From Lachnospiraceae bacterium (GTDB taxonomy: Bacteria > Bacillota > Clostridia > Lachnospirales > Lachnospiraceae), in contig JAFUAB010000041.1 of NCBI GenBank assembly GCA_017460885.1, positions 52,998 through 116,997 on the forward strand: DNA of 64,000 nucleotides. The letters run 5' to 3'. The position numbers and the translations under genes are program-made. The notes below the pieces were generated by a model, which did not search any database, was not told the DNA's origin, and saw only the letters and a program-made list of their open reading frames with translations. Below are positions 13,763 through 27,598 of this stretch, piece by piece. The first letter of the stretch is position 1. Each line of letters begins with the position of its first letter.

Positions 13763-13920
13763 TATAGTAAACGAATTATAGTGAACGTCAAAAATATTTT
13801 GACGTTCACTATAAATCCTCCGGCGGGATGCGCACGGATTTGCAGAGGAAATTAATGCTTCGCATAGCAAATCCGGCGCAGTAAACGACTAAAAGTATAA
13901 ATACTTTTGTCGTTTACTAT
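13763..13920. repeat. Three-hairpin repeat element, copy A
   Basis: A ~158-bp unit bounded by TATAGTAAACGA (13763-13774) and TCGTTTACTAT (13910-13920). Inside are: hairpin 1, an 18-bp stem TTATAGTGAACGTCAAAA with loop ATA (13776-13814); a core CTCCGGCGGGATGCGCACGG; hairpin 2, GCGC-A-CGGATTTGC paired with GCAAATCCG-GCGC (13830-13879) with a bulged A and a small tip hairpin ATGC-TTC-GCAT; and hairpin 3, AGTAAACGAC..GTCGTTTACT (13880-13919). The copy at 27456 shares core and arrangement. No coding potential. It occupies most of the 460-bp gap between the YjfB-like and HD-GYP genes. Confidence 0.75.
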
Positions 13921-13957
13921 GTAATTGGACTTTGCCGAGCCAAAATCGTTGACTATA
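13921..13957. repeat. Partial element-C-like end
   Basis: Directly after copy A, GTAATTGGACTTTGCC (13921-13936) is the inverted copy, with one mismatch, of 13244-13259 inside element C, and CGTTGACTATA (13947-13957) is identical to element C's right end. This suggests that copy A inserted into, or was joined to, a second C-like element. Confidence 0.55.
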
Positions 13958-13975
13958 CATGGAATTGTCTGGTTT

Positions 13976-16105
13976 ATGGAAGAAGTAAGAAAAAAAATAC
14001 TAAAAAATAAAAATATTCCATGGGTGATCCTCATGTGCGCAGTCGCTCTGGTGCTGAATCTTAGCGGAGCGTCTCTTGCATCGGCGATACATCTGCCAAT
14101 ATACCTTGATACGATCGGAACCCTGCTGGCAGCGATAATAGGTGGATACCTGCCCGGTATTTTCGTCGGGTTTGTCAGTAATTTCATCAAGGCCTCATCG
14201 GATCCCACAGCTATCTATTATGAGTGTCTGAGTGTAATAATGGCCGTAGTGGCCAGCTGGTTTGAACAGAAGGGTTATCTCCGGAGATTCGGAGGGATTG
14301 TAGCGTTTACGGTCATAGCTTCACTTATCGGCGGCGGACTGGGATCGTTGCTGACCTGGTTCCTGTACGGATTTGCCGCGGAGGGGATCACGGTTCCTTT
14401 TGTAAAGCAGCTGTATGAGAGCGGAAGCTTTTCGCCGTTTATGGCGCAGATCACCGGTGATGTGTTTATAGACTTCGTAGATAAGGTCATAAACATGATC
14501 TTTATACTGCCGATCTATATCCTTACTCCGGAAAATATCCGCAGGAAATTCAGACTGAACGGCTGGCAGCAGAATCCGCTTGAGGATAAGGATGAGCTCA
14601 GAGCCGGATCAAGTAATAACAGATCGATCTCCATCAGGACCAAGATGATGTTTATGATCACCTCGGCTCTGATGATCATTGCGATAGTGTCCACGGTTAT
14701 AGGTTACAGTCTTTATCTGGAGGACAGTATAGAGAACCACAGATATCTGGCCGAGGGAGTGGCATCCACCGTAGCCGGTGTCGTAGAACCGTACAGGATA
14801 AACGATTACATAGATCTCGGTTATTCTGCCATCGGATATGTGAGGACCGAGAATAACCTGTATGATATCAGAAACAGTTCTCCGGATATAGAGTATCTGT
14901 ATGTGTATCGTATACTGCCGGACGGATGTCACGTGGTGTTTGACCTGGATACGGATGATCTGAAGGGAGCGGAGGCAGGAGAGATCATTCCGTTTGATGA
15001 TTCCTTTGCTCCGTATATAGATGCCCTTCTCGCCGGAGAGGAGATCGAACCGATCATTACGGATGATACCTATGGATGGTTGCTTACGGTATATAAGCCT
15101 ATTGTTGATGAAAACGGAGTCACTCAGGCATACGCCTGCATCGATATTTCGATGGACAGACTCAGATCCAACGGCTACGCCTTTCTGGCAAAGCAGATAT
15201 CACTGTTTATAGGTACGTTTATCCTTATCCTGGCCATCGGACTCTGGATCATCAGATATAACCTGATCTATCCGGTCAATACCATGGCTATGGCTGCGAC
15301 CAATTTTGCCTACCATATGGAGGATCAGCCGGATGACAGCGTGGATAGGGTCAAGGCTCTGCAGATCTGTACAGGTGACGAGATAGAGAACCTGTATATG
15401 GCCTTTTCCAAGATGACAGAGGACAGTGTCGACTATGTCAATGAGATACAGGAGAAGACCGATACCATACAGGAGATGCAGAACAGTCTGATCCTTGTTC
15501 TTGCGGATATGGTTGAGAGCAGGGATAAAAATACGGGCGACCATGTACGCAAAACCGCTATCTATACCGACGTTATCATGAAGGAGCTCATTAAAGAGGG
15601 AATCTATACGGATGTTCTTACTCCCGAGTTTGTAAATGATGTTTATAATTCGGCGCCGCTTCATGATATAGGAAAGATAAGCGTATCCGATGTGATCCTG
15701 AATAAACCCGGTAAGCTTACGGATGAAGAATTTGCGGAGATGAAGAAGCACACAACGGCCGGCAGCGAGATCATAAGCCGTGTTATAGAAATGGTACCGG
15801 AGTCCAGTTATCTCTATACGGCCAAGGATCTGGCGGAATTCCACCATGAAAAATGGAACGGAACGGGATACCCTCACGGAATATCCGGGGAGGAAATACC
15901 GCTTTCGGCGCGTATCATGGCGGTGGCAGATGTGTTTGATGCACTTGTTTCCAAACGAAGCTATAAAGAAGGTATGCCTGTAGAAAAGGCTCTGGGTATC
16001 ATCAGAGAGGGAATAGGTACGCATTTTGATCCTTATGTTGCGCAGGCATTTCTGAATGCGGAAGAGGAGGTGCGTAAGGTTCTTGAAGGCAAGTGGGAAG
16101 CCTGA
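13976..16105 (+). CDS. Membrane HD-GYP domain protein (probable c-di-GMP phosphodiesterase)
   Basis: Starting at the ATG at 13976, ~709 residues. The first ~175 residues form a multi-span membrane domain with PIYLDTIGTLLAAIIGGYLPG, which resembles the S-component fold of ECF transporters. A further span (~223-245), ~155 extracytoplasmic residues (a possible Cache-type sensor), a span at ~405-428 and a HAMP-like linker follow. The C-terminus (~505-700) is an HD-GYP domain with HDIGKI (~562) and HHEKWNGTGYPHG. Expected role: hydrolysis of cyclic di-GMP in response to an external or membrane ligand. Followed at 70 bp by a chemoreceptor. Confidence 0.88.
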   Translation: MEEVRKKILKNKNIPWVILMCAVALVLNLSGASLASAIHLPIYLDTIGTLLAAIIGGYLPGIFVGFVSNFIKASSDPTAIYYECLSVIMAVVASWFEQKGYLRRFGGIVAFTVIASLIGGGLGSLLTWFLYGFAAEGITVPFVKQLYESGSFSPFMAQITGDVFIDFVDKVINMIFILPIYILTPENIRRKFRLNGWQQNPLEDKDELRAGSSNNRSISIRTKMMFMITSALMIIAIVSTVIGYSLYLEDSIENHRYLAEGVASTVAGVVEPYRINDYIDLGYSAIGYVRTENNLYDIRNSSPDIEYLYVYRILPDGCHVVFDLDTDDLKGAEAGEIIPFDDSFAPYIDALLAGEEIEPIITDDTYGWLLTVYKPIVDENGVTQAYACIDISMDRLRSNGYAFLAKQISLFIGTFILILAIGLWIIRYNLIYPVNTMAMAATNFAYHMEDQPDDSVDRVKALQICTGDEIENLYMAFSKMTEDSVDYVNEIQEKTDTIQEMQNSLILVLADMVESRDKNTGDHVRKTAIYTDVIMKELIKEGIYTDVLTPEFVNDVYNSAPLHDIGKISVSDVILNKPGKLTDEEFAEMKKHTTAGSEIISRVIEMVPESSYLYTAKDLAEFHHEKWNGTGYPHGISGEEIPLSARIMAVADVFDALVSKRSYKEGMPVEKALGIIREGIGTHFDPYVAQAFLNAEEEVRKVLEGKWEA

Positions 16106-16173
16106 TCCCATAAATATACGAACCTTTATCGGTTTAGCCGGTAGAAATATATTTTTAAAGAAAGGATACTCTT

Positions 16174-27286: not shown

Positions 27287-27360
27287 CGTGCCTGAAGGGA
27301 TTCGAACCCCCGACCCACGGCTTAGAAGGCCGTTGCTCTATCCAGCTGAGCTACAGACAC
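27287..27360 (-). tRNA. tRNA-Arg (anticodon UCU)
   Basis: Minus strand: acceptor GTGTCTG/CAGGCAC, D arm AGCTCAGCTGGATAGAGCA, anticodon TCT, T arm GGGTTCGAATCCC. First gene of the operon; reads AGA codons, common in this window. Confidence 0.95.
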
Positions 27361-27383
27361 ATATTCAGCAAACGTGCTTAAAT

Positions 27384-27412
27384 AAATTATCATAAATAAG
27401 TATTTAAGTCAA
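27384..27412 (-). promoter_or_regulatory. Promoter of the tRNA operon
   Basis: Minus strand: TTGACT (plus 27407-27412), 17-bp AT-rich spacer, TAATTT (plus 27384-27389), 24 bp before tRNA-Arg. Confidence 0.8.
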
Positions 27413-27455
27413 GGATTATTTAACCTATTTACTCCGGAAGTTTGACGTGTTATAT

Positions 27456-27598
27456 TATAGTAAAAGAAATTAAAAATTTCGTTTACTATAACGCTCCGCG
27501 GGGATGCGCACGGATTTTGTAAGGTAATATGCCGCTTTCAGCGGCCAAAATCCGGCGCAGCAAACGACAAAACGAAAAAACTTTTGTCGTTTGCTATA
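27456..27598. repeat. Three-hairpin repeat element, copy B
   Basis: A 143-bp relative of the element at 13763. Hairpin 1 is TATAGTAAA..TTTACTATA (27456-27490). The core CTCCGCGGGGATGCGCACGG (27494-27513) differs from copy A at two adjacent positions. Hairpin 2 pairs GCGC-A-CGGATTTTG with CAAAATCCG-GCGC and has a tip hairpin GCCGC-TTTCA-GCGGC (27531-27545) unrelated in sequence to that of copy A. Hairpin 3 is AGCAAACGACAAAA..TTTTGTCGTTTGCT (27559-27595). Ends are TATAG/CTATA. It fills most of the 350-bp gap between the tRNA operon and the FliD-like gene; the remaining ~110 bp hold a leader with a CTCTC..GAGAG hairpin and the ribosome site. Confidence 0.75.

Follow-up and report, generated by a model that had tools for sequence, protein, structure and literature searches.

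A stretch of 64,000 nucleotides from a Lachnospiraceae bacterium (GCA_017460885.1, contig JAFUAB010000041.1, positions 52,998 to 116,997; hereafter the window) carries two copies of a short element from a large family of structured mobile elements that is widespread among bacteria of the gut and rumen. Members are ~125-190 bp long and consist of a left hairpin (hairpin 1), a conserved core, and a right hairpin (hairpin 3). Mobility, exact junctions, and insertion without target duplication are shown for one subfamily, and in two subfamilies, with the outer junctions read without requiring it, the bases at the inner foot of hairpin 1 are complementary to the target pentamer outside the element. 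We suggest that these are non-autonomous elements moved in trans by a single-strand transposase resembling those of IS200/IS605, with the target chosen by the foot of hairpin 1, a reading whose chances we put as evenly balanced.

The first-pass annotation of the window had let its proposal depend on further copies in related genomes, and these are plentiful. At up to three mismatches, GGGATGCGCACGGATTT occurs at 41 places in the window's genome, compared with one for its reversed control, which is well above chance, and the 25 of these that were read individually, all with 0 or 1 mismatch, are every one an element. A covariance model of the core (R1), built from 11 copies out of the window's genome, gives 27 matches in that genome (E <= 3.4e-16), although the assembly may hold two strains and a few of these loci are possibly counted twice (e.g., L011/L022). 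Of 61 genomes (the window's own and 60 relatives), 15 have a match at E <= 0.1, weak in two cases, and every one of the 15 is in the same family. With a broader model (R2, 34 sequences), matches are found in 229 of 397 sampled Lachnospiraceae genomes, with at most 12 candidates scored per genome, such that per-genome copy numbers are lower bounds; in a class-wide sample R2 matches 11 of 291 genomes, six within Lachnospiraceae and five outside, one of the latter at E = 0.0097. An exact pattern is present in at least 120 stretches of named genomes, and among the matches listed (80) the records are named Lachnospiraceae, Lachnospira, Butyrivibrio, Eubacterium or Sarcina. Viral contigs, phages, and plasmids gave no match to one exact pattern and one TTTAA-type query each. 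More than half of the genomes sampled from this bacterial family, a common one in gut and rumen, thus carry the element, whose core has no counterpart in Rfam 15, either in the window at gathering score or at 20 loci at E <= 5; at these loci only sub-threshold microRNA-precursor and similar hits touch the hairpins, none at gathering score. We found no description of the family in the databases and papers searched. The main text of a study of palindromic candidate RNAs in human microbiomes (PMC8040213) contains neither Lachnospir- nor transpos-, with supplements that may list the motif, and the main text of PMC3733652 contains neither Firmicutes nor the five clostridial names looked for.

The core fold comprises a short UCC/GGA hairpin and a long bulged stem with a tip hairpin, and its three helices covary. 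In an alignment of 106 distinct sequences, which was fitted to the model and hence leans towards it, 92.8% of 2158 cells are paired and 600 changes are double-sided, compared with 176 in shuffles; with partners slid by 1-3 columns as a control, only 24-53% of cells pair. Further pair types are not clearly above shuffles (58 of 500 reach the observed number). The alignment of 34 sequences gives 94.7% paired cells and 204 double changes versus 55 shuffled. The compensatory nature of these changes agrees with the earlier proposal of selection on structure rather than sequence, and the core is a clear case of structure kept while sequence drifts. Conservation outside the pairs is seen in CTCCG..GGAT, the bulged A, a GG(N)AA internal loop, and GGCGC. 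Of the 2158 cells, 42 are G-U and 56 are A-C, 31 of the latter at a single pair, with no clear strand preference; because these counts single out no RNA strand, folded DNA is possible, and the core may act either as RNA or as folded DNA. With regard to self-correction of hairpins, 20 similar copies of the window's type (TATAG), from several genomes, have six stem pairs changed on both sides and six on the outer 5' side only, with no one-sided change in the inner stem. One-sided changes dominate in the TTTAA type, but that set contained long forms and was not used. At six loci (L210, L220, L224, L248, L254, L032), the hairpin 1 arms differ by matched two-sided changes, for which hairpin-templated correction is a possible source.

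Evidence for mobility comes from identical or near-identical copies at unrelated sites and from empty sites. To find the latter, the two flanks of a site were joined and used as a query, for 34 of 68 sites in 397 genomes and for 10 sites, six of which also belong to the first set, in 22 genomes of one genus. Six empty sites were obtained, all for the TTTAA subfamily; in each, insertion is 3' of a T-rich pentamer, and target duplication is seen at none. In one pair, the empty site CAAGTTTAA|CTATCC in a genome whose flanks match L. pectinoschiza (G707) corresponds to CAAGTTTAA-element-CTATCC in L. multipara. A further genome of the family (G365) is identical to Lachnospira multipara in the matched flanks (100%). 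Three of the six have exactly TTTAA: GTTTTAA|TCTG, AAGTTTAA|CTATCC, and CTCTTTAA|G, although in this last case the flank on the right has diverged. At one terminator-type site the relatives are too diverged to define the empty site, and 18 kb of the window compared with the same genus gives long matches at ~65-75% identity, with shorter ones higher, which is too distant for empty sites. Together with the lack of an accompanying transposase gene, these observations sustain the first-pass proposal of a non-autonomous mobile element. They also argue against an ordinary cis-regulatory or small RNA gene multiplied by duplication. Sense orientation between genes, terminator-like right hairpins, and the covarying core would suit such a gene, but the empty sites and junction precision would not, and there is no shared neighbor type beyond common ones such as ABC transporters and response regulators. 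We dropped this interpretation because empty sites exist, and consider it highly improbable.

The target relationship concerns the five bases at the 3' foot of hairpin 1, immediately before the core motif CGCTCCG, which are complementary to the outer pentamer. For the TTTAA type we read 60 junctions, at least two pairs of which are one site in sister genomes, with a pattern requiring AACTC-like and AGTCTTGA-like ends and nothing outside them. The outer three bases beside AACTC are T in 53, 56, and 53 of the 60, the last base is C or T in 57, and the foot is TTAAACG. A second type has TTTAT at 14 of 15 junctions in one genome (G348; the exception is AAAAT) with the foot ATAAACG, and TTTAT is also seen at single loci in two others (L108 of G016 and L135 of G031); four matched loci of this type (two in G348) are without a readable left end and two (G016) without a readable right end. 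Copies of a third class follow a T-run and have the foot AAAAACG (AAAAA or similar), probably with TTTTT as target, and the window's type has the left end TTATA and the foot TATAA; the boundaries in these last two classes are not fixed by empty sites. Target and foot thus differ together between subfamilies, as TTTAA/TTAAA, TTTAT/ATAAA, probably TTTTT/AAAAA, and TTATA/TATAA. Across 107 copies scanned, 78 have a recognizable hairpin 1 stem, and the foot complement is exact in 45, one base off in 23, and two or three off in 10, in a scan that seeks the best complementary stretch and so favors matches. The joint change of guide and target makes the target choice of a natural small element directly testable.

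The proposed mechanism would have a family of non-autonomous elements inserting 3' of a T-rich pentamer without target duplication, with the five foot bases acting as a guide that chooses the pentamer and a single-strand (HUH/Y1, IS200/IS605-like) transposase supplied in trans moving the element; the core would be required either in recognition or in some RNA function retained by the element. We infer the enzyme, the guide role of the foot, the operation of the same mechanism in the TATAG subfamily, and the role of the core. A bolder version, which we offer only tentatively, is a small programmable mobile element, partner-moved, in which a folded core (RNA or single-stranded DNA) is joined to a five-base guide dictating the landing pentamer, with the core re-aimed many times across the family, including to terminator T-runs.

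The first-pass annotation had taken the TATAG..CTATA ends with TA edges as target duplications of the IS630/mariner type. This is not supported by the six empty sites of the sister TTTAA subfamily, which have no duplication and a one-sided T-rich target, although the window's TATAG type may differ. A related possibility is that the TATAG subfamily is a miniature inverted-repeat transposable element (MITE) of an IS630/Tc1-mariner-like DDE transposase with TA duplication, into which the core was captured. TATAG..CTATA ends are present at 16 sites (the pattern itself requires them), TATAGTNAACG occurs 137 times in the genome versus 10 for the reversed control, and a ~105-bp repeat with inverted ends TATAGTCAACG lies at 13173-13281 of the window. 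Among the matches listed of the 137 places, however, there is no inward-facing pair of ends 1-2 kb apart, and the sister subfamily has its empty sites without duplication. The left base is T in 29 of 43, which fits the pentamer TTATA, and yet the right side (A in 18 of 37) is compatible with symmetry. IS630-type MITEs such as Correia elements are alike in the TATAG-like outer ends of the window's subtype, but the tested sister subfamily differs in lacking duplication, and the ends of the family vary between subfamilies. We regard the capture of the core by such a MITE as fairly unlikely. The ~105-bp repeat itself is ~500 bp upstream of copy 1, has ends resembling those of the element, and is found at 80-87% identity in at least 20 further places in the genome.

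We examined position relative to genes for 57 copies of the TATAG and TTTAA types with enough flank, with open reading frames called by length only. Forty lie between two same-sense genes (++) and eight between two antisense genes (--), 46 are downstream of and sense to a gene, and 15 have a target whose TAA closes the upstream reading frame. Many right hairpins are terminator-like. A hairpin of <= -10 kcal/mol is present within 35 nt before the T-run in 30 of 40 copies of the T-run class, compared with 14 of 36 others, some of which are themselves terminator-adjacent; the T-run before this class is mostly that of an upstream intrinsic terminator. Insertion at gene ends and terminators means that the element touches the 3' ends of many operons. 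Group IIC introns insert directly after intrinsic terminators in sense orientation, with short target pairing, and the family resembles them in both respects. It could be imagined as a retroelement of this kind, whose RNA would pair five bases with the DNA target, in the manner of exon- and intron-binding sites (EBS/IBS), and which would insert after terminators using reverse transcriptase supplied in trans. The short guide-target pairing without duplication, the one subfamily found after terminator T-runs in sense orientation, the gene-sense bias, and the preference for C or T as last base would all fit. The element is only ~130 nt, however, has no intron match in the Rfam scans, and lacks a GUGYG 5' end, and the TTTAT subtype of G348 has no gene-sense bias (5 ++, 3 +-, 3 --, and 3 -+); we consider a retroelement unlikely. 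The replication strand was tried as a discriminator in another genome (G294), in which 12 + and 17 - copies (tandem clusters included) lie on opposite arcs tracking GC skew, with one in the interval where the skew flips. Coding sequence shows the same trend, with ~87% of it co-directional in 20 sampled stretches, and the hypotheses are therefore not separated.

What moves the element is approached through its neighbors and its ends. No transposase recurs among 947 open reading frames near copies, where the recurrent clusters are ABC transporters (15 loci), response regulators and HD proteins (9), GGDEF/EAL proteins, and spurious frames across the element itself. IS605-type elements in this bacterial family begin at TTTAAC; G032 has three such copies, one of which carries a TnpB-family gene, and at two loci in genomes bearing the element (L378 and L365) TTTAAC precedes the same kind of hairpin. 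The left end of L378 is matched within hairpin 1 of the long form at 19 of 19 bases (E = 1.5e-5), and that of L365 at 17 of 18 (E = 0.015); when 27 control loci were compared, what scored below E 0.1 proved to be copies of the element. This sharing is at the left end of the long form only, with no right-end match seen at these two loci.

IS200/IS605 elements, as described in PMC7290912, have neither inverted repeats nor duplications and insert 3' of a tetra- or pentanucleotide; binding is to a hairpin at either end, with the guide located at its 5' foot, as in IS608; PATEs are derivatives consisting of the ends only. The family is like PATEs and other IS200/IS605 MITEs in its lack of duplication, insertion 3' of a fixed pentamer, end hairpins, presumed movement in trans, and presumed short guide, and in the left-end hairpin segment that the long form shares with an IS605-type element. 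It differs in having a conserved covarying core of ~65 nt between the hairpins and several target classes within one bacterial family. Because its presumed guide is at the 3' foot and it has this extra conserved core, we do not file the family as a proven member of IS200/IS605.

Several further observations weigh against movement by an IS200/IS605-like transposase under guidance of the foot. First, in structure, the target complement is at the 3' foot of the left hairpin rather than the 5' foot as in IS608, the hairpins are terminal, and in long forms the foot could pair instead with an inner copy of the left stem. Second, three of the six empty sites deviate from TTTAA by one or two bases: TATTAAA (filled TATTTAA), TTTTTTGAC (filled TTTTTTTAA), and CTTTACAA (filled CTTTTTAA), the last with 5 nt missing on the right. 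At all three, the filled version carries bases that pair with the foot of hairpin 1, reflecting either divergence of sister species or a flank altered after insertion, between which six sites cannot tell. Third, of 14 genomes with copies that were tested, 9 have PF01797, whereas it was not found in G266 (99% complete) or G096 (98%); of 10 genomes without copies, 4 have it. A search of 30 Y1 loci with the model recovers no full core (best E 0.016), and a broken copy next to a RAYT-like gene (L384) is all that is seen there. No element copy was found in G032, which holds the best-mapped TTTAAC start of IS605. Fourth, the TTTAT-type copies of G348 are of mixed strand along the chromosome, where a replication-strand bias might be expected. 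Last, the end motif of the TATAG subfamily is common to a classical-looking MITE, and this subfamily has yielded no empty site, none of its 11 among the 34 queried sites having matched. The mechanism is half shown, with the least resolution for the subtype of the window, since its subfamily has given no empty site.

Two other comparisons were considered. REP/REPIN sequences with RAYT genes are likewise short, intergenic, hairpin-forming, and present in many copies as solo and tandem forms, but this element is asymmetric with one core and does not flank RAYT genes; the RAYT-like genes of G236 and G599 are flanked by a different repeat, and the broken copy at L384 is the only association seen. 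Alternatively, the core could be a guide-RNA scaffold of the TnpB/IscB kind on a stripped element, used in trans; the left pentamer would then be the adjacent motif, and the guide would be supplied by the right flank. The TTTAA target recalls TTTAAC, at which IS605-type elements that have a TnpB-family gene sit; a T/A-rich motif on the left with a covarying, structured segment near the right end recalls HEARO and TnpB omega-RNA, and the prevalence of copies downstream of and sense to a gene would also fit. However, neither HEARO nor any other Rfam model matches, no nuclease gene is attached, the Y1/IS605 loci examined are without a full core, and the terminator-like right hairpins of many copies would cut off the guide. 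A scaffold role of this kind seems to us quite improbable.

Both window copies lie on the + strand and contain what the first-pass annotation had described: the order of hairpins, the core CTCCG-NN(N)-GGATGCGCACGG, the bulged-A stem, the AAACGAC/GTCGTTT end hairpin, and unrelated tip hairpins. The order it gave holds and the locations need only slight adjustment: copy 1 does not start at 13763, where a separate partial element end (TATAGTAAACGAA, 13763..13775, read directly from the sequence) precedes it; solo ends and palindromes like this one recur elsewhere in the genome. Copy 1 occupies 13776-13921. Its hairpin 1 (TTATAGTGAACGTC..GACGTTCACTATAA) is at 13776..13814, with, by analogy to the sister subfamilies, the presumed target pentamer TTATA at 13776-13780 and the presumed guide TATAA at 13810-13814; the core (CTCCG..GGATGCGCAC-P2-P3-P2'-GGCGC) is at 13818..13879, identified by its fold and an R1 match at 13812-13887 (100.3 bits), and hairpin 3 (AGTAAACGAC..GTCGTTTACT) is at 13880..13921. 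Copy 2 occupies 27455-27598, with hairpin 1 at 27455..27491 (presumed target TTATA at 27455-27459, presumed guide TATAA at 27487-27491), the core at 27494..27558 (R1 match at 27488-27566, 74 bits, and fold), and hairpin 3 (AGCAAACGAC..GTCGTTTGCT) at 27559..27598; hairpin 3 was read from sequence and fold in both copies. The right end is CTATA in copy 2, as annotated, but CTATG in copy 1. The core is ~62-65 nt in each. The RNA fold is unusually stable, with z = -6.0 for copy 1 (13790-13920 only) and z = -8.4 for copy 2, a stability that 0 of 200 shuffles reach. By itself, the short core string is no rarity in the window, with three matches (<=2 mismatches) where 1.82 are expected, and 25 of 100 shuffles reach three.

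Variant arrangements occur elsewhere. Solo hairpin 1 palindromes, a chimera of hairpins 1 and 3, and copies broken in or just past GGATGCGCAC are seen at L311, L315, L316, L310, L312/L313, L322, and L384, and one copy (L196, ~4600-4760) has roughly 90 bp inserted in the loop of the tip hairpin. In other genomes, core units stand in tandem at L140, L142, L362, and L363, with a spacing of ~110 bp (less in L363) and intervening palindromes. The element is found at contig ends in several assemblies, and in the window assembly, whose listed contamination is 6.64%, L312/L313 and L318/L319 each represent one locus on two contigs, which suggests two strains. Within the window, a cluster of four tRNA genes on the minus strand (26992-27360) immediately adjoins copy 2.

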